Notes: generated from the letters alone by a model not told the origin. Positions 52,219 to 59,971 are shown, counted from the first letter of the stretch. The stretch is 64,000 bases of DNA from Bacillota bacterium (GCA_017543265.1 JAFYGI010000047.1:1-64000), one strand, 5' to 3'. Program-made: numbers and translations.

Positions 52219-52914
52219 ATGCTCGATGAACTTAAAAAGGCGGTGTGCAATGCAAATCTTGAATTGGTAAGGCACAAGGTCGTTATATATACATGGGGCA
52301 ATGTAAGCGGTATAGACCGTGAAAAGGGTCTTGTTGTTATAAAACCATCCGGTGTTGACTATGCAAATATGGCTCCGGAGGATATGGTCACGGTGGAGCT
52401 TGATAGCGGCAAACCTGTGGAAGGGAAGTGGAAGCCGTCCTCGGATACGCAGACACATCTTGCTCTTTACCGTGCATTTCCGTCGTTGGGCGGCATTACG
52501 CATACGCATTCCGTAAATGCGGTCGCCTTTGCACAGGCGGGTCTTCCGATACCTGCGCTCGGCACTACCCATGCGGATTATTTTTACGGTGATATACCCT
52601 GTACACCGTCGCTTACCGAGGCGCAGACTGCCGATGATTATGAGCTGAATACAGGTCTCGCCATTGAAAAATGCTTTAAGGATATGGGCATAAACCCTGT
52701 TGCAATTCCCGCTGTGTTGGTGAAAAATCACGGCCCGTTCACTTTTGGCAAAACGCCGGATGAGTCCGTTTATCACGCTGTGGTGCTGGAAACCGTGGCG
52801 GAGATGGCTATGAAAACACTTGCGCTGTCGTCTGATGCGGCGCTGCCGCAGTACATATTGGACAAGCATTATCAAAGAAAGCACGGCCCCAACGCATATT
52901 ACGGCCAAAAATAA
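52219..52914 (+). CDS. araD: L-ribulose-5-phosphate 4-epimerase
   Basis: This 231-residue class II aldolase-like enzyme interconverts L-ribulose-5-phosphate and D-xylulose-5-phosphate. Visible motifs are TWGNVSGIDR, VIKPSGVDY, SSDTQTHLALYRAF and the zinc site HTHSVNAVAFAQ, with a third metal histidine in KNHGPFTFG. The size equals AraD/UlaF. No arabinose kinase or isomerase is adjacent, so its pathway context is missing; it may serve the sugar genes next to it. AAGGAGA precedes the start. Confidence 0.93.
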   Translation: MLDELKKAVCNANLELVRHKVVIYTWGNVSGIDREKGLVVIKPSGVDYANMAPEDMVTVELDSGKPVEGKWKPSSDTQTHLALYRAFPSLGGITHTHSVNAVAFAQAGLPIPALGTTHADYFYGDIPCTPSLTEAQTADDYELNTGLAIEKCFKDMGINPVAIPAVLVKNHGPFTFGKTPDESVYHAVVLETVAEMAMKTLALSSDAALPQYILDKHYQRKHGPNAYYGQK

Positions 52915-52932
52915 GCAAAGAGGGATGGGAGC

Positions 52933-53829
52933 ATGAAGGTACTGGTTTTGGGTGGTACCCGTTTTTTCGGCGTGGAAACGGTGCGGCGGCTGATAGCCGA
53001 CGGACACGAGGTCACGCTTGCAACACGCGGCCTTACGCCCGATACGTTTGGCAATGATGTTTTGCGCATAAAGTTCGATCACCTTGATAAAGAAAGTGTA
53101 TGCGCGGCGCTCGGCGGCAAATACTACGATGCGGTCGTCGATAAAATTGCATTTTCGTCAAATGATGTTAAAAGAATACTTGATGCGGTAGAGTGCAAAA
53201 AATATGTCCTTATGTCCACAAGCGGCGTTTATCCGCCCTGCGGTACGGATATAAAGGAAACCGCTTTTGATCCGCTGGCACATTCTCTGAAATGGGGCGA
53301 ACGTGACTGGAGCAGATACGGGCACCCGGGCATCTTTGACTATGACGAGGGTAAAAAACAGGCGGAGGCGGCACTTGCACAGGCCTATCCGCACATAAAC
53401 GGCATTATGCTGCGCTATTCGGTGGTAATAGGCGAAAACGACTATACAAAAAGACTGCTTTTTTATGTTGAGCACGTTTTATACGGTACATCTATGTACA
53501 TATCAAATCCCGATACAAAAATATGCTTCTATGACGAAAAGGGGGCAGGGGGACTGATAGCCGATGTGCTTAAAACGGATATAACGGGGCCTTTTAATGC
53601 CTGCTGTGACGGCTGCGTTTCTCTGTCGGAGATCACAGCCTATATAGAAAAAAAGACCGGAAAGCGTGCCGTACTTGATAAAGACGGCGATCCCGCACCG
53701 TATAACGGCTTTACGGGGGATTATACCCTATGTACGCAAAAGGCAAAGGATGCAGGATTGCATTTTGTCGATATAAACGACAGGCTGTGGGAGCTTTTGG
53801 ATAAATATATTTATTCGCTGAAAAAGTAA
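52933..53829 (+). CDS. NAD-dependent epimerase/dehydratase family protein
   Basis: This 298-residue SDR-type protein has the Rossmann NAD-binding motif VLVLGGTRFFGVETVRRL at the start. The catalytic area shows MSTSGVYPPCG with a serine-threonine pair and a DYDEGKKQAE stretch in the place of the Tyr-x-x-x-Lys motif (YDEGKKQ). This resembles the atypical SDR branch of sugar epimerases and mRNA-binding homologues, so the activity is uncertain. It lies between araD and a GT2 gene and probably acts on a sugar nucleotide. Confidence 0.85.
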   Translation: MKVLVLGGTRFFGVETVRRLIADGHEVTLATRGLTPDTFGNDVLRIKFDHLDKESVCAALGGKYYDAVVDKIAFSSNDVKRILDAVECKKYVLMSTSGVYPPCGTDIKETAFDPLAHSLKWGERDWSRYGHPGIFDYDEGKKQAEAALAQAYPHINGIMLRYSVVIGENDYTKRLLFYVEHVLYGTSMYISNPDTKICFYDEKGAGGLIADVLKTDITGPFNACCDGCVSLSEITAYIEKKTGKRAVLDKDGDPAPYNGFTGDYTLCTQKAKDAGLHFVDINDRLWELLDKYIYSLKK

Positions 53830-53839
53830 AGGAGCAAAA

Positions 53840-54820
53840 ATGGAAAATAACAAAAAGGAAAAGCTTTCGTTTGTAATTCCCTGCTACCGCTCTGAGCAGA
53901 CTATAGAAAGCGTTGCCAAGGAAATAAATGATACCGTGCTTTCGGACGGGCGCTACGAATATGAGATGATCTGCGTAAACGATTCTTCGCCCGATGATAC
54001 GATAAGTGTGCTTAACAGAATGGCCGAGAAAGACGAAAGGATAACGGTAGTTGATCTTGCACGAAACTTCGGTCAGCACGCCGCGATAATGGCAGGCTTT
54101 AATTATGTTACGGGTGATATAGTGGTGGTAATGGACGACGACGGACAGACACCGCCCAACGAGGTGTTCAAGATTGTGGACAAGCTTAACGAGGGCTATG
54201 ATATGGTATCTGCAAAATACCCCGTTAAAAGGGAGTCGCTGTTCAGGCGTTTCGGCTCGTGGACATCGACCGTTATGGGCGAGATACTTGCAAGCAAGCC
54301 GAAAAATGTGGAAATAAACAGCTACTACGCCGTGCGCAGGTTTGTCGTGGACGAGGTTATAAAATACCGCAATCCCTATCCCAATGTGCAGGGGCTTATT
54401 TTCCGCGTGACCCGCAGAATAACCGACACCGAAATAAATCACCGCGCCCGTGAGGTGGGCACATCGGGCTACAGCATTACAAAGCTTATTGCGCTGTGGA
54501 TGAACAGCTTTACATCGTTCTCCGAAAAACCGCTGCGTATGGCATCGCTTCTGGGCGTTTTAAGCTCTGCCTGCGGCTTTATATTCGGCATCGTTATAAT
54601 TATAAGAAAGCTGCTTAACCCCGCTGTACCGCTGGGCTACAGCTCCACAATGGCTGTAATGCTGTTTATGTTTGGCATAGTGCTGCTTGTGCTTGGTCTT
54701 TTGGGCGAGTACATAGGGCGTATGTATATTTGTATAAATAACGCACCGCAGTTTGTTGTAAGGGATGAAAAAAATGCAAAAAAGAAAACCGCCGCTTCAT
54801 CCGAAAACGACGGTAATTAA
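53840..54820 (+). CDS. Family 2 glycosyltransferase, membrane-bound (DPM1/GtrB-like)
   Basis: This 326-residue enzyme has an N-terminal GT-A domain with FVIPCYRSEQTI, the DDDGQ nucleotide-binding site and a C-terminal pair of membrane helices (about residues 232-260 and 272-295). It ends in a lysine-rich tail. Such proteins load a sugar from UDP- or GDP-sugar onto undecaprenyl phosphate for surface glycans. It lies at the end of the plus-strand sugar genes facing the Kdo-like operon, which suggests a common glycan. Confidence 0.92.
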   Translation: MENNKKEKLSFVIPCYRSEQTIESVAKEINDTVLSDGRYEYEMICVNDSSPDDTISVLNRMAEKDERITVVDLARNFGQHAAIMAGFNYVTGDIVVVMDDDGQTPPNEVFKIVDKLNEGYDMVSAKYPVKRESLFRRFGSWTSTVMGEILASKPKNVEINSYYAVRRFVVDEVIKYRNPYPNVQGLIFRVTRRITDTEINHRAREVGTSGYSITKLIALWMNSFTSFSEKPLRMASLLGVLSSACGFIFGIVIIIRKLLNPAVPLGYSSTMAVMLFMFGIVLLVLGLLGEYIGRMYICINNAPQFVVRDEKNAKKKTAASSENDGN

Positions 54821-54827
54821 GGCTCAT

Positions 54828-54854
54828 AAAAGCACTGTGAAAACGGTGCTTTTT
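54828..54854. terminator. Bidirectional terminator between the GT2 and FkbM genes
   Basis: AAAAGCACTG pairs with CGGTGCTTTT (one T-G pair) across a 6-base loop, with Ts on the plus side and As on the other. Confidence 0.8.
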
Positions 54855-55914
54855 ATATTGCGTAAAGAACGGTTTCCACACCCGCAGGAGCATAATTCCT
54901 TAAATAAAGCTTATAATCGGGGTGCAGGCTCAGAAGATACTCGGGTATCCTTACAAGGTCATCCTCTTTGTGGTAAACGCAAACGGCAATTTGGGGTCTG
55001 TGTTTTAAAATGGTTTCTCTTGCACCCAAAAGTGCGGAAAATTCCGCGCCTTCAATGTCCATTTTGATATATGATACCTCTGCGCCGTTAAGTACATTAT
55101 CAATAGAGTCTACATCTATTTTTGTACTTCCGCAGTCGGATATAGACGAACTTACCGTGCTTTTTTCGTCAAAGAACAGGGTGTCCTTTTTGTCGGAGAC
55201 ACCTATGCAAAGACATTCGATATTTTCGTAATGCTTTGTGTTTGAGCACAGTTTTTCATAGTTTTTCGGATCCGGCTCCAGTGCATAGCACTTTTTGTAA
55301 GAAGAAATATTATTGTGTCTTAAAAAGTCAATAAAACCAAAGACGGTATCCCCGTCATAGGCTCCGCAGTCAAGAAAAGTCATATTTTTCTGGGGGTGGG
55401 GTAGGATTTCACTGTCATAATACTGTATTTTATCGGAGTACGTTTTTTCATAGTTTCCGTCATATTTTTGCGCGATAAACGAAAGCATTGCCGCACGCGA
55501 GCGGTCGTCCACAAGTCGTGTGAACAGGTCAAAAAGTTTTTCCTTGTGTTTCGACATAAATTCATCGCTGTATGCACCAAATTGAATATAGGACGAAAAA
55601 TCACGCTTATAAACTTTTTTAATCATATCATGTTGGAGCGAATATGCGCCTTTTCCATTAACATCAAGATAGACCGCGGGGATAACAGCGGCAGGATTTT
55701 GCAGCTCCTCGGGGCAGATCATAGGCTTACCGTCAACAAAACGCTCGGATGCTTTTTCGGGCAGATATTTTTTGTCTACCATATAGCCTTTAAAATCTAT
55801 TTTTCGCTGCTTAAAAAGCGTGCGCAGGTGCTTTGCAACAACTCCGGCTCCGTAAAAATAAATGTCATTTTTTTCTTTTGATATCTCGTCAAAAAAACGA
55901 TCCATGTAATCCAT
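54853..55914 (-). CDS. FkbM-family methyltransferase
   Basis: This 353-residue protein carries an N-terminal Rossmann-like part (DIYFYGAGVVAKHL) and the FkbM methyltransferase domain (TFLDCGAYDGDTVFGF, EPDPKNYEKL, IKMDIEGAEFSALLGA). FkbM enzymes O-methylate sugars and other hydroxyls using SAM. Gene order makes it the last gene of the Kdo-like operon, starting at the stop of the ATP-grasp gene (TAATG overlap). The substrate is probably a glycan sugar; this is inference. Confidence 0.88.
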   Translation of the reverse strand: MDYMDRFFDEISKEKNDIYFYGAGVVAKHLRTLFKQRKIDFKGYMVDKKYLPEKASERFVDGKPMICPEELQNPAAVIPAVYLDVNGKGAYSLQHDMIKKVYKRDFSSYIQFGAYSDEFMSKHKEKLFDLFTRLVDDRSRAAMLSFIAQKYDGNYEKTYSDKIQYYDSEILPHPQKNMTFLDCGAYDGDTVFGFIDFLRHNNISSYKKCYALEPDPKNYEKLCSNTKHYENIECLCIGVSDKKDTLFFDEKSTVSSSISDCGSTKIDVDSIDNVLNGAEVSYIKMDIEGAEFSALLGARETILKHRPQIAVCVYHKEDDLVRIPEYLLSLHPDYKLYLRNYAPAGVETVLYAI

Positions 55915-57098
55915 TACTGTTCCTCCATTTCAACAACGACTCTGTCGTTATAGTGTAGTATCTCGCTGTTCATTGTCTGCATATCCTCGTAGGTGAAGTA
56001 TATATGGGCTATCTTTTCGTTAAGGTGGTTATGTACGATGCCGCCGTCGGGGATATTGACAAGCGTTTTAAAGGTGCGTGCCCGTATATCATCGGGTATG
56101 CTCCAGCCCTTTAATATGCCGTCGGTATCGGCCATAATACCGTAGTGCCCGCAAAAATCCACCTGCGGGCCTTTGCATTCAAGGCCGTCAAGCGGCATAT
56201 TGAGTGCCGCCATGATATAGGCCTCCTCGAACGGAAAGCCTGTGCGCAGCACAGAAAGCTGCAGCGTTTCGTTGCCGAAGCAGCGGCGCATCATATCAAT
56301 AACATACGGCTTGCCGTCCTTTACGATATACTGAAAGGACAGTATGCCGTCCGCCAGATCCAAAAGCTCCGCCATTTTGTGTATCACTTCGTGAAGCCTG
56401 TCTTTTACTGCATCAAAGTTTTCGGCAGGGTAGGTCTCCGCCTGTACAAGATACGGGTTTTTCATGCAGTAAACATTGCTTGACGAGGTGGCAACTATCT
56501 TTTTGTTTATCAAAAATACAACAATAGACTGCTGAACGCCTTCCATATACTGCTCTATCAGGACCTGTTTCGTGCGCGACATTTCAAAGGCGGTATCTAT
56601 GGCCTTATCGGCCTCGGCCTTGTTGTCCGCACGGTGTATACCCTTGCCGCCCGTAAGGTCGGCAGCCTTTACGATGATCGGGTATTCACAAACCGCACAG
56701 TAGCTTTTTGCCTCGTCCGCGCTGCCGAAAGTTTTGTAAAAAGGTGTGGGCAGGCCGTTTGCAAGAAAATAATCTTTAAATTCGTTTTTTCTGTGCATCA
56801 TAACCGCATTTTTAAATGTGTCATGACCCTTCCAGCCCATTTGCTCGGCAACATAGGCGGATGTAATAACGCCAAAGTCGTTTGCGCAGCTTATTATGCC
56901 TTCTATGCCGTTTTCCTTTACAAGTTCAAGTATAGCCTTGTAGTCGGAGTAATCCTCGGGGATATACTCGTCTGCGACCTTGTGTCCGGGAAGATCGGGC
57001 ATATTGCCGCTTGTCACAACATAAAAACCCATTGCCTGTGCCTTTTTTATTATAGGTATCTCGCTTATTGTCCCGTTTAAGATAAGTATTTTTTTCAT
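55914..57098 (-). CDS. ATP-grasp family ligase
   Basis: This 394-residue enzyme has a pre-ATP-grasp fold (KKILILNGTISEIPIIKKAQAMG) and an ATP-grasp fold with VKAADLTGGKGI as the ATP loop and IDMMRRCFGNETL as the metal-binding segment. It resembles PurK/PurT-like and carbamoyl phosphate-like ligases that form a carboxyl-amine or carboxyl-phosphate bond. In a sugar-acid operon it may join an amino acid or other group to the ulosonic acid carboxylate, but that is a guess. The start at 57098 is preferred over 57128, whose extra residues lie inside the upstream gene. Confidence 0.85.
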   Translation of the reverse strand: MKKILILNGTISEIPIIKKAQAMGFYVVTSGNMPDLPGHKVADEYIPEDYSDYKAILELVKENGIEGIISCANDFGVITSAYVAEQMGWKGHDTFKNAVMMHRKNEFKDYFLANGLPTPFYKTFGSADEAKSYCAVCEYPIIVKAADLTGGKGIHRADNKAEADKAIDTAFEMSRTKQVLIEQYMEGVQQSIVVFLINKKIVATSSSNVYCMKNPYLVQAETYPAENFDAVKDRLHEVIHKMAELLDLADGILSFQYIVKDGKPYVIDMMRRCFGNETLQLSVLRTGFPFEEAYIMAALNMPLDGLECKGPQVDFCGHYGIMADTDGILKGWSIPDDIRARTFKTLVNIPDGGIVHNHLNEKIAHIYFTYEDMQTMNSEILHYNDRVVVEMEEQ

Positions 57099-57112
57099 TA
57101 CAGTTTCCGTCC

Positions 57113-57583
57113 TTATGAAATTATCCATTCTATAAATTCTCTGACCGCGCCTCTGCCGCCGTCATAGGAAGAAATAAAATCCGCCGCTTCTTTTGCCGCT
57201 TTTACGGCATCGCGCGGACAGCCTGCAAGGCCTGCGGCACGCATACATTCCACATCGTTTATATCATCGCCAATATAGGCAGTTTCGGCAAGAGTAATGC
57301 CGTACTCGGAAAGTATTTTTTCAAGCGCGGATATTTTATTCTGACAGCCCTGTACAAGCACCTTTATATCCAGCTCCTCGCAGCGTTTTGCGGTTATTGC
57401 GGAGCTGCGTCCCGTGATAACGACAGGTATTATGCCATGTTCTGGCAAAATATGTTTTATGGCAAGACCGTCGCGCACATAAAATCTTTTCATGCACTCG
57501 CCGTCATTGCCGATATATATGCCGCCATCGGTCATGGTGCCGTCTATATCCAGCACCAGCGCCTTTATATTTTTTTTATCCAT
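57113..57583 (-). CDS. KdsC-type HAD phosphatase
   Basis: This 156-residue HAD phosphatase of class C0 type has LVLDIDGTMTDGG with the nucleophile Asp, ITGRSS and YIGDDINDVECM, the family's full set of motifs, and is as short as KdsC, which has no cap domain. KdsC removes the phosphate from Kdo-8-phosphate or Neu5Ac-9-phosphate-like products. In this operon it follows the cytidylyltransferase and overlaps it by eight bases. Confidence 0.92.
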   Translation of the reverse strand: MDKKNIKALVLDIDGTMTDGGIYIGNDGECMKRFYVRDGLAIKHILPEHGIIPVVITGRSSAITAKRCEELDIKVLVQGCQNKISALEKILSEYGITLAETAYIGDDINDVECMRAAGLAGCPRDAVKAAKEAADFISSYDGGRGAVREFIEWIIS

Positions 57584-58241
57584 TTTCTTTACCCCTGTAA
57601 TGCCCGTATATCACCTGTGCAAGCTCCCAATCGTCCTCGGTATCGATGTCTACGGTGGGGTTGTAGGCATCATACCAGAACGGTTTTTCGCCGACCATAT
57701 ATTTTACATTTTCCACGCAGGAGCGTGACAATATTTCATTTGCCCAGCTTATTTGGTAAGTGGGAGGTATAAACTGCGAATACTTGTGCCAATATCCAAA
57801 GCCGAAGCCTATCGGATCGTGGTTTTGTGTAAGAAAATATTTTTTCAGCGGATATACCACATTAAGTGAATCATGGGTGCCCTTTACATCCTCCCATGTG
57901 CTGAACATATTCCCGTAATCGTCAAAAAGCGGATCCATGCACGAGCAGTAGAGTATATCATCATCACCCGGCACATCCTTGCATACGCCCTGAACAACAT
58001 CAACGGTGTTGGTATCCAAAAGGGTATATTTTATATCACGGTGGATAAACTGTATGCCCCATTTGTCAGCGACTGCCTTTATGTCGGCATTTTCGCTTGA
58101 AAGAAAAATGTCGGATGCGTCCAGATGCTTTAAAAGCTTTTCAACAAGGATATCTGTAAGGCTCATACCGTTGTAAAACGGTCTGTAATTTTTCATTTCT
58201 ATTCGTCTGGAATTTGATTTTCCGAGTATAACGGCTTTCAC
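57576..58241 (-). CDS. Acylneuraminate/Kdo cytidylyltransferase-like protein
   Basis: This 221-residue nucleotidyltransferase-fold protein begins KAVILGKSNSRRI, a variant of the NTP-binding start, and contains the acidic residues of a sugar-nucleotide transferase (SSENADIKAVADKWG). It looks like the NeuA/PseF branch more than KdsB. It should activate the free ulosonic acid as CMP-sugar. The start is GTG with four bases of overlap to kdsA and an AAGGAGG site upstream. The distant sequence lowers certainty on the exact sugar. Confidence 0.82.
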   Translation of the reverse strand: MKAVILGKSNSRRIEMKNYRPFYNGMSLTDILVEKLLKHLDASDIFLSSENADIKAVADKWGIQFIHRDIKYTLLDTNTVDVVQGVCKDVPGDDDILYCSCMDPLFDDYGNMFSTWEDVKGTHDSLNVVYPLKKYFLTQNHDPIGFGFGYWHKYSQFIPPTYQISWANEILSRSCVENVKYMVGEKPFWYDAYNPTVDIDTEDDWELAQVIYGHYRGKENG

Positions 58242-59083
58242 TGTATATCAAGCCTCCTTGTAAGGTCGTCATACTGCTTTGCAACACGCAGTATATCGGC
58301 AATTTTATCAAGTTTTATCTGGCTCGGTCCGTCCGATACGGCATGGTCGGGGTCGGGATGGACCTCTGCAAAAATACCGTCTACGCCCACGGCAAGACCC
58401 GCATTCATCATATAGGGCGCAAATTCTCTGTTGCCTGCCGTAAATTCCTTGCCGCTGCCGGGGGTCTGTACGGAATGCGTTGCATCAAGAAAAACGGGAT
58501 AACCCAGTCTTCTCATGTCCAGAAGTCCCTGCATATCCACCACAAGACGGTTGTAGCCAAAGGTGGTGCCGCGTTCGCAAAGTATGATGCGCTTGTTGTC
58601 AACGGAAAGCATCTTGTCCACAACATTGTCCATGTTCCAGGGTGCCATAAACTGCCCTTTTTTGATATTAACGGCTCTTCCTGTTTTTGCACAGCCTACA
58701 ATAAGGTCTGTCTGGCGGCAAAGATAAGCGGGTATCTGTAAAATATCACATACCTTTGCGACTTCCTCGCACTGGTAGGTCTCGTGTACGTCAGTTGTAA
58801 CGGGCACATGGTACTTTGCTTTTATGTCGCTTAATATCCTAAGTCCCTTTTCCATGCCGACACCGCGGCCTGCATGAAGATTGGAGCGGTTCGCCTTGTC
58901 AAACGAGCCCTTGAATATATAGTTTATATCAAGCTCTTTACAAACATCAACAAGCACCGATGCAACTTCGTCGCACATCTGCGCACTTTCGATAGAGCAC
59001 GGGCCTGCGATAAGCGTCATTTTGCCGCCGCCTATAACTATGTCATCCCATTCGTCCAAAGTAAAAGAATTAACTTTAAGCAT
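58238..59083 (-). CDS. kdsA: 3-deoxy-8-phosphooctulonate synthase (KdsA-type)
   Basis: This 281-residue class I aldolase-type synthase shows the KdsA pattern in full: LIAGPCSIES, FKGSFDKANRSN, HAGRGVGMEKGL, TTDVHETYQ, QIPAYLCRQTDL, KKGQFMAPWNM, LCERGTTFGYN and DATHSVQ. It condenses arabinose-5-phosphate (or a close pentose) with phosphoenolpyruvate to Kdo-8-phosphate. The metal-independent or metal-dependent subtype cannot be told by eye. It overlaps the cupin gene by eight bases and the cytidylyltransferase gene by four. Confidence 0.94.
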   Translation of the reverse strand: MLKVNSFTLDEWDDIVIGGGKMTLIAGPCSIESAQMCDEVASVLVDVCKELDINYIFKGSFDKANRSNLHAGRGVGMEKGLRILSDIKAKYHVPVTTDVHETYQCEEVAKVCDILQIPAYLCRQTDLIVGCAKTGRAVNIKKGQFMAPWNMDNVVDKMLSVDNKRIILCERGTTFGYNRLVVDMQGLLDMRRLGYPVFLDATHSVQTPGSGKEFTAGNREFAPYMMNAGLAVGVDGIFAEVHPDPDHAVSDGPSQIKLDKIADILRVAKQYDDLTRRLDIQ

Positions 59084-59585
59084 TTTCTATTATCTCCTTC
59101 CATTCGTCTGCTGATATGGTAGTCCTGCGTATTGCGTAGCCGGCCTTCGCTATCTCGCTGTCAAGGTATATCGAGTCGTTCGGCACATACATTGTGGATA
59201 TTTCCTCAAACACTACGCCTTTTTCGGTTGAAAAGGCATGGTCCTGGCCTCTTTCTATGTGAAGCATCTCACCGGGCAGTATGTAGTGGTTTTCGCCCTC
59301 AAGCGTTACGCACAGCGTACCGTCAAGCCCGTAAAAAGACTCTGTCTTTATCCTGTGGTAGTGGTTGGGATATACCTGTCCCGGCAGCATAACAACAATG
59401 CTTTTGCAGTAGTCCCTGTTTACGACGTTTATAAACATTGCGCCTGTTTCGCTGAGTTTATCAAGGCCTCTGTGGTGATATATATTTACCGTTGCGGCCT
59501 TGGGCAAAACGATATGCGCACGTTTCATCAGTGAAATTGCGTTTTGTGTATATTCCCTTATCGTTAAGTTATCCATAGCTGACAT
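59076..59585 (-). CDS. Cupin-fold sugar isomerase-like protein (D-lyxose isomerase type)
   Basis: This 169-residue cupin has the metal-binding set in NHYHRIKTESFYGLDG (two His and one Glu) and a later His in LHIERGQDHAFS. The pattern resembles D-lyxose ketol-isomerases. Standing first in a kdsA operon, it may make the pentose phosphate substrate, replacing KdsD; this is inference from position. The start at 59585 leaves eight bases from AAAGGGG; GTG 59594 is too close to the site. Confidence 0.8.
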   Translation of the reverse strand: MSAMDNLTIREYTQNAISLMKRAHIVLPKAATVNIYHHRGLDKLSETGAMFINVVNRDYCKSIVVMLPGQVYPNHYHRIKTESFYGLDGTLCVTLEGENHYILPGEMLHIERGQDHAFSTEKGVVFEEISTMYVPNDSIYLDSEIAKAGYAIRRTTISADEWKEIIENA

Positions 59586-59594
59586 TTTACGCAC

Positions 59595-59971
59595 CCCTTT
59601 ATTATCCCGCAGAAAATGCTTTTGCCGTTTTGCAAAGCGGCAAGATACTGCATTATCCGCGTTAATATCCTATATCTATACTTTATCATCAATAAAAGCG
59701 TATGTCAAGGATGATATGGGGTTTATTAACGGCAATTGGGCACAATTTTATAAAATAATGCCGATGTTTTTGTACGGGGGAAAAGCAGTCGAATATTTTA
59801 CAAATAAATCGATTTTGGGTTTAAAAAAATTGGTAAAACCGCTGAAATTTTAAAATTTGTGCAAAACAAATTAAAATTGTATGCGTAAGGTGGTATAATA
59901 GCGTATGTATATAAACGGCACATCCGAAAGCCTGCGGTTTTCGGATGCAGACCGCAAAAGGAGAATTGATC
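59595..59971. other. Divergent intergenic region with promoter and leader hairpin
   Basis: These 377 bases separate the minus-strand Kdo-like operon from the plus-strand secreted protein. I see no convincing gene. A TATAAT at 59894 with TTAAAA at 59871 (17-base spacing) is a possible weak promoter for the plus-strand gene. A perfect 9-base-pair hairpin (CATCCGAAA at 59921 with TTTCGGATG at 59939) lies in the leader just before the AAAGGAG site. Operon promoters for the minus-strand genes should lie near 59600-59700 but I cannot pick one with confidence. Confidence 0.5.

Follow-up and report, generated by a model that had tools for sequence, protein, structure and literature searches.

Six genes on the minus strand of a Bacillota genome (GCA_017543265.1) appear to form an operon for an activated acidic sugar. 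They lie in the stretch JAFYGI010000047.1:1–64000, and this whole stretch of 64,000 nucleotides is called the window here. With a rough probability of 0.6, the operon makes a 3-deoxy-octulosonic acid of the Kdo (3-deoxy-D-manno-octulosonic acid) type, activated with cytidine monophosphate (CMP). A cupin protein would stand in for the isomerase KdsD, and the sugar would be made without lipopolysaccharide (LPS) machinery. The pathway itself is known. The new part is the cupin instead of KdsD and the link of this cupin to NeuB fusions.

The Operon

All six frames are intact and packed close. Neighboring genes abut or overlap by a few bases, consistent with one transcription unit. This confirms the overlapping six-gene operon described in a sequence-only reading of this DNA. 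The first gene encodes the cupin (59076–59594, with 59585 or 59579 as possible alternative starts), which passes the Pfam models Cupin_2 and Lyx_isomer. The second encodes KdsA, the 3-deoxy-octulosonate-8-phosphate (Kdo8P) synthase (58238–59083). It scores 364 bits against TIGR01362 (cut-off 314) and matches Kdo8P synthases in the PDB with an E-value of 4e-82. The best model for 3-deoxy-arabino-heptulosonate-7-phosphate (DAHP) synthases gives only 132 bits, and this assignment was rejected. The third gene (57576–58241, GTG start) encodes a NeuA-type cytidylyltransferase recognized by its fold, hereafter CMPt, the proposed CMP-ulosonate synthetase. A KdsC-like HAD phosphatase follows (57113–57583; TIGR01670, 145.6 bits against a cut-off of 107). 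KdsA and KdsC both exceed curated cut-offs, and the earlier proposal that this Gram-positive genome encodes a pathway to a Kdo-type ulosonate is supported. The last two genes encode an ATP-grasp ligase (55914–57128) and an FkbM-family methyltransferase (54853–55914; TIGR01444, 72.7 bits against a cut-off of 37.7). Of the family models, the ATP-grasp protein passes the general ones of Pfam for ATP-grasp and none for a specific family, and its homologues place the start probably at an internal ATG near 57098. A promoter-like site is seen upstream of the operon at 59708–59680, although shuffled sequence yields such sites at least as often.

Apparent Replacement of KdsD by the Cupin

The cupin was used as a query across ~85,000 species genomes, which gave 16 loci, and an order search was added. 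The cupin stands beside KdsA and CMPt in five further Clostridia (L037, L038, L049, L050, and L051; L061 is on the same contig as L037, and L052 on that of L038). The block cupin-KdsA-CMPt is the core common to all six operons. Its recurrence in five other Clostridia excludes chance as its source. The window, L049, L050, and L051 also have ATP-grasp and FkbM genes in common. Across these four clostridial genomes, cupin, KdsA, CMPt, and the ATP-grasp protein are conserved at 59–85% identity, and the ATP-grasp homologues of the three relatives are 59–76% identical. KdsC is seen in the window, L037, and L038.

In the other Bacillota KdsA loci, KdsD adjoins KdsA in 30 of 32 cases and the cupin in none. 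Conversely, KdsD is found in none of the six cupin-KdsA loci, nor above the cut-off anywhere in the five related genomes. The two exceptions among the 32 (L085 and L096) are without KdsD within the short stretch examined. The chance of such a pattern is ~1e-5 (28 in 2.76 million) if the loci are independent; they are related, so the pattern is less striking than this figure suggests. Within the order to which the window belongs, KdsA occurs together with KdsD and KdsC in two genomes (L122 and L123), so both solutions are present there. These facts indicate that the cupin appears to take the place of KdsD.

The window genome (2.49 Mb in 63 contigs, 98% complete) would be clostridial, of the Lachnospirales kind, the same order as Lachnospiraceae. 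Like clostridial bacteria in general, the host is presumably monoderm. TIGR00393, the model for KpsF/KdsD, gives no match in this genome. KdsB is absent above its cut-off; the best match, elsewhere in the genome, has 23 bits against 155. With these two and the missing matches to WaaA, KpsC/S, and polysialyltransferase, a canonical LPS or capsule pathway was rejected for the window genome. KdsA above the cut-off is seen in the window's genome alone among the 61 genomes searched as relatives, and in 3 of 391 sampled genomes of the class. Because of this rarity, the operon was probably acquired.

Among Firmicutes, the canonical CMP-Kdo pathway (KdsD-KdsA-KdsC-KdsB) is reported from Negativicutes and Halanaerobiales (PMC5007114). 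The window resembles this LPS or capsule pathway in having members of the KdsA and KdsC families and a CMP-sugar synthetase in one operon. It differs in having the cupin for the SIS-type KdsD and a NeuA-type enzyme for KdsB, and in a genome without WaaA or KpsC/S.

The Cupin as a Predicted Sugar Isomerase

The AlphaFold model of the cupin has a mean predicted local distance difference test score (pLDDT) of 94.6. The ten best PDB folds for this model are D-lyxose/D-mannose isomerases (best E-value 3.4e-11 over 165 columns), and phosphomannose isomerases rank next. KdgF-type cupins are far below D-lyxose isomerases. In the D-lyxose isomerase of Thermofilum, the sugar and the metal are bound by K62, H75, H77, K86, E88, H143, E156, and D163; activity is lost when a residue matching K86, E156, or D163 is mutated (PMC8378251). 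In a profile alignment, K59, H73, H75, K78, E80, H114, E126, and D135 of the cupin correspond to these eight residues. They are invariant in a 16-member alignment, except that H73 is Gln in most NeuB-fused members. The cupin is thus predicted, with moderate support, to belong to the D-lyxose isomerase superfamily and to interconvert an aldose and a ketose in a metal-dependent manner, and the earlier assignment of the isomerase step to this gene is supported to the same degree.

The cupin shares with D-lyxose isomerases (B. subtilis 2y0o, Thermofilum 7nzo, and E. coli 3kmh; PF07385) the full-length predicted fold and the eight substrate and metal residues. It is only ~25% identical to them, and its linkage points to sugar-phosphate biosynthesis rather than catabolism of free sugars. 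By sequence alone, the best PDB match is a quercetin dioxygenase, but it covers the core cupin motif only. A dioxygenase was rejected because sugar isomerases agree with the cupin over the whole length of the fold and in the catalytic residues.

Phylogeny of KdsA

In the tree, the window KdsA branches within Kdo8P synthases from diderm Bacillota, the outcome of a phylogeny that the earlier reading had proposed as a check. The six cupin-linked KdsA proteins form one clade with support of 100/100. This clade adjoins a KdsD-linked clostridial pair (96/86), inside the KdsA of other Bacillota. The substrate motif KANR and the metal residues of KdsA (Cys, His, Glu, and Asp) show no variation across the alignment, the cupin-linked sequences among them. 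Taken together, the features of KdsA are compatible with an unchanged as well as with a somewhat changed substrate.

Proposed Pathway and Alternatives

We infer the substrate, the product, the order of steps, and the fate of the sugar as follows. The cupin would convert a ketopentose phosphate, most likely ribulose-5-phosphate, to a 2S aldopentose phosphate, most likely arabinose-5-phosphate. KdsA would join this to phosphoenolpyruvate (PEP) to give Kdo8P, and KdsC would remove the phosphate. CMPt would use cytidine triphosphate to convert the octulosonic acid to its CMP-activated form, which might then be passed to a surface glycan. The ATP-grasp protein, FkbM, and perhaps the short-chain dehydrogenase/reductase (SDR) encoded nearby could tailor the sugar or its carrier. 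Nothing was found to support the more specific earlier proposals of methylation of the sugar and its coupling through the ATP-grasp enzyme. Ulosonic acids have a precedent in Gram-positive walls as a class, the teichulosonic acids.

The activation step was read earlier as a CMP-transferase-like gene. A cytidylyltransferase is indeed present, of the NeuA type rather than KdsB. The model of CMPt (pLDDT 85.5, with two poorly predicted segments) matches best NeuA and PpNeuA, a CMP-Kdn synthetase, and KdsB ranks lower. K17, N18, D198, and D200 are invariant. CMPt resembles CMP-sialic acid and CMP-Kdn synthetases (NeuA; 1eyr and 9t4z) in its predicted fold and its KN and DxD residues, while it is ~20% identical to them and is linked to an octulosonate instead of a nonulosonate synthase. 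It is the sole candidate for the activating enzyme in the window operon.

Several observations weigh against a Kdo-type product made by these steps. Known D-lyxose isomerases favor 3S ketoses, and ribulose-5-phosphate is 3R. A long stem (1.0) leads to the clade of cupin-linked KdsA, which carries the substitutions F120Y and N254S at sites otherwise invariant or nearly so; the stem and the substitutions could mark an altered substrate. CMPt is below all curated cut-offs (22.4 against 22.6 for Pfam, 34 against 206 for PseF), and it coexists with KdsB in L037 and L038. Being NeuA-like, below the cut-offs, and accompanied by KdsB there, CMPt may have a substrate other than Kdo. KdsC is not in the operons of L049–L051. 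Finally, WaaA-type Kdo transferases, KpsC/KpsS, and polysialyltransferases give no match in the window genome. The sequence-only reading had named the absence of any transferase as evidence against it, and this applies in part: what is missing from the genome is a recognized Kdo transferase, and other transferase families could exist.

Some of these points suit a different pentose. The cupin could convert xylulose-5-phosphate to D-lyxose-5-phosphate or, together with AraD, make an L-pentose phosphate, and KdsA would then yield a non-Kdo acid such as a C6 epimer, activated in the NeuA manner. We regard this as rather doubtful. It is favored by the fold of the cupin, nearest to D-lyxose isomerases, by the stem and substitutions of KdsA, by the lack of KdsB in the window genome, and by the AraD-like gene close by. 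The C6 epimer from xylulose-5-phosphate is a possible product because of the 3S preference of D-lyxose isomerases. KdsA nevertheless keeps KANR and the metal residues, and AraD is found in none of the related operons. A KdsB-like gene, narrowly above the kdsB cut-off, accompanies the cupin-KdsA block in L037 and L038, the only loci where it does so, and this fits Kdo as the product.

It is improbable that the cupin is not a pentose phosphate isomerase at all. It might act after the synthase, as an epimerase or in ring opening of the ulosonate, or it might bind to the synthase or regulate it. The constant company of PEP-dependent synthases suits a role on the product equally well, and the Gln at the first metal His in most NeuB-fused cellular members is in line with it. 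The KdsA-linked members, on the other hand, keep the full isomerase active site, KdgF-type cupins rank well under D-lyxose isomerases by fold, and the loss of KdsD would be left without explanation. That the operon is a recent acquisition, silent or decaying, with a product unused by the cell, is very unlikely. The occurrence of KdsA in 1 of 61 genomes and the missing Kdo transferase agree with such a fate, but the six closely packed frames are intact and the block is kept at the identities given above across four genomes.

If the proposed Kdo-type pathway is true, there would be a second, unrelated enzyme for the arabinose-5-phosphate step of Kdo synthesis; otherwise, the operon could produce a new octulosonic acid. 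A Kdo-type sugar would be placed in bacteria without LPS machinery, and the cupin domain of NeuB-type synthases in several phyla and viral contigs would gain a testable function. As KdsA in metagenomes is easily taken as a sign of LPS, cupin-KdsA loci would mislead. Among open-licence papers, no cupin arabinose-5-phosphate isomerase, NeuB-cupin fusion, Kdo in monoderm Clostridia, or report of this operon was found, which is weak evidence of novelty.

Cupins Fused to NeuB

In nine cellular loci from other phyla, a protein of ~500 residues combines an N-terminal NeuB with the cupin homologue at its C terminus. The nine were seen directly, and Pfam confirms one of them. Upstream of the cupin in a tenth locus (L056), the frame is either interrupted or unrelated; the resolved loci do not include L064. 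In viral contigs, all 54 cupin relatives found are fused to NeuB, among which misassigned host DNA may be present; one of the 54, selected on the DYCK motif, was taken into the cupin tree. The phage and plasmid collections gave only distant partial matches. The cupins of the NeuB fusions (L053–L063 and viral contigs) are 35–41% identical to the window cupin and share its catalytic positions except the first metal His, often Gln. The window cupin differs in standing beside KdsA without being fused.

In almost every resolved locus, therefore, the cupin family is beside or fused to a PEP-dependent sugar-acid synthase of one of two kinds. The simplest shared role would be the supply of an aldose phosphate to the synthase. 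It can be speculated, more tentatively, that this isomerase family, as yet undescribed, is dedicated to PEP-dependent ulosonate synthases (KdsA in Clostridia, NeuB fusions in many phyla and viral contigs) and that in the window it supplies a KdsA whose product is an octulosonic acid other than Kdo, which would give a monoderm envelope a new activated sugar.

In L053, L055, L058, and L060, from distant phyla, NeuB-cupin genes occur with genes similar to glucose-1-phosphate cytidylyltransferase and CDP (cytidine diphosphate)-glucose dehydratase and with a thiamine-diphosphate enzyme gene, the last confirmed by Pfam in L058. From their gene content, they look like a conserved cluster for a branched or acidic sugar.

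Flanking Genes and Other Loci

Three genes on the plus strand converge on the operon. They encode an AraD-like L-ribulose-5-phosphate 4-epimerase (52219–52914), the SDR, an NAD-dependent epimerase/dehydratase (52933–53829; Pfam Epimerase), and a family 2 glycosyltransferase (GT2) of the ArnC/PgfS type, similar to polyprenyl-phosphate glycosyltransferases (53840–54820). The AraD-like protein has 349 bits against NF006047 (cut-off 257) and 322 bits against TIGR00760, below its cut-off of 389. The spacings between the three genes (52219–54820) are 18 and 10 bases, and they are probably one transcription unit. Between the GT2 gene and the FkbM gene lie 32 bases. SDR homologues of 47–53% identity are inside the operons of L049 and L051. 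A 45% identical GT2 homologue adjoins the L051 operon, after two small EmrE-like proteins (assigned by eye, with no family match) and a WecE-type aminotransferase. GT2 and SDR are thus possibly linked to the operon, and the link of AraD is uncertain. Use of the product by GT2, as proposed earlier, has in its favor the conserved GT2 and SDR neighborhood of this one relative, and nothing further was found.

Near the cupin-KdsA operon of L037, a gene at 415–2961 encodes a pectinesterase domain joined to a long C-terminal region, in which a KPHP motif resembles the one in CMP-sugar transferases. It is a candidate transferase in that genome. In L049 (12886–15875), panB-like and panC-like genes follow the ATP-grasp gene. 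The other related loci are without them, and this neighborhood is probably due to chance.

A CMPt homologue in L039 (9793–12575, genome G061), 46% identical to that of the window, is beside GAPDH-like and dehydrogenase-like genes. With neither KdsA nor cupin there, the CMPt family may activate other acids too. L101 (G299:C48, 8420–12250) contains a second KdsB-like gene, KdsC, two NeuA-like genes, and an aldolase-like neighbor, with no KdsA. At its start, this KdsC differs very little from the KdsC in the cupin-KdsA locus that the same genome has on a different contig.

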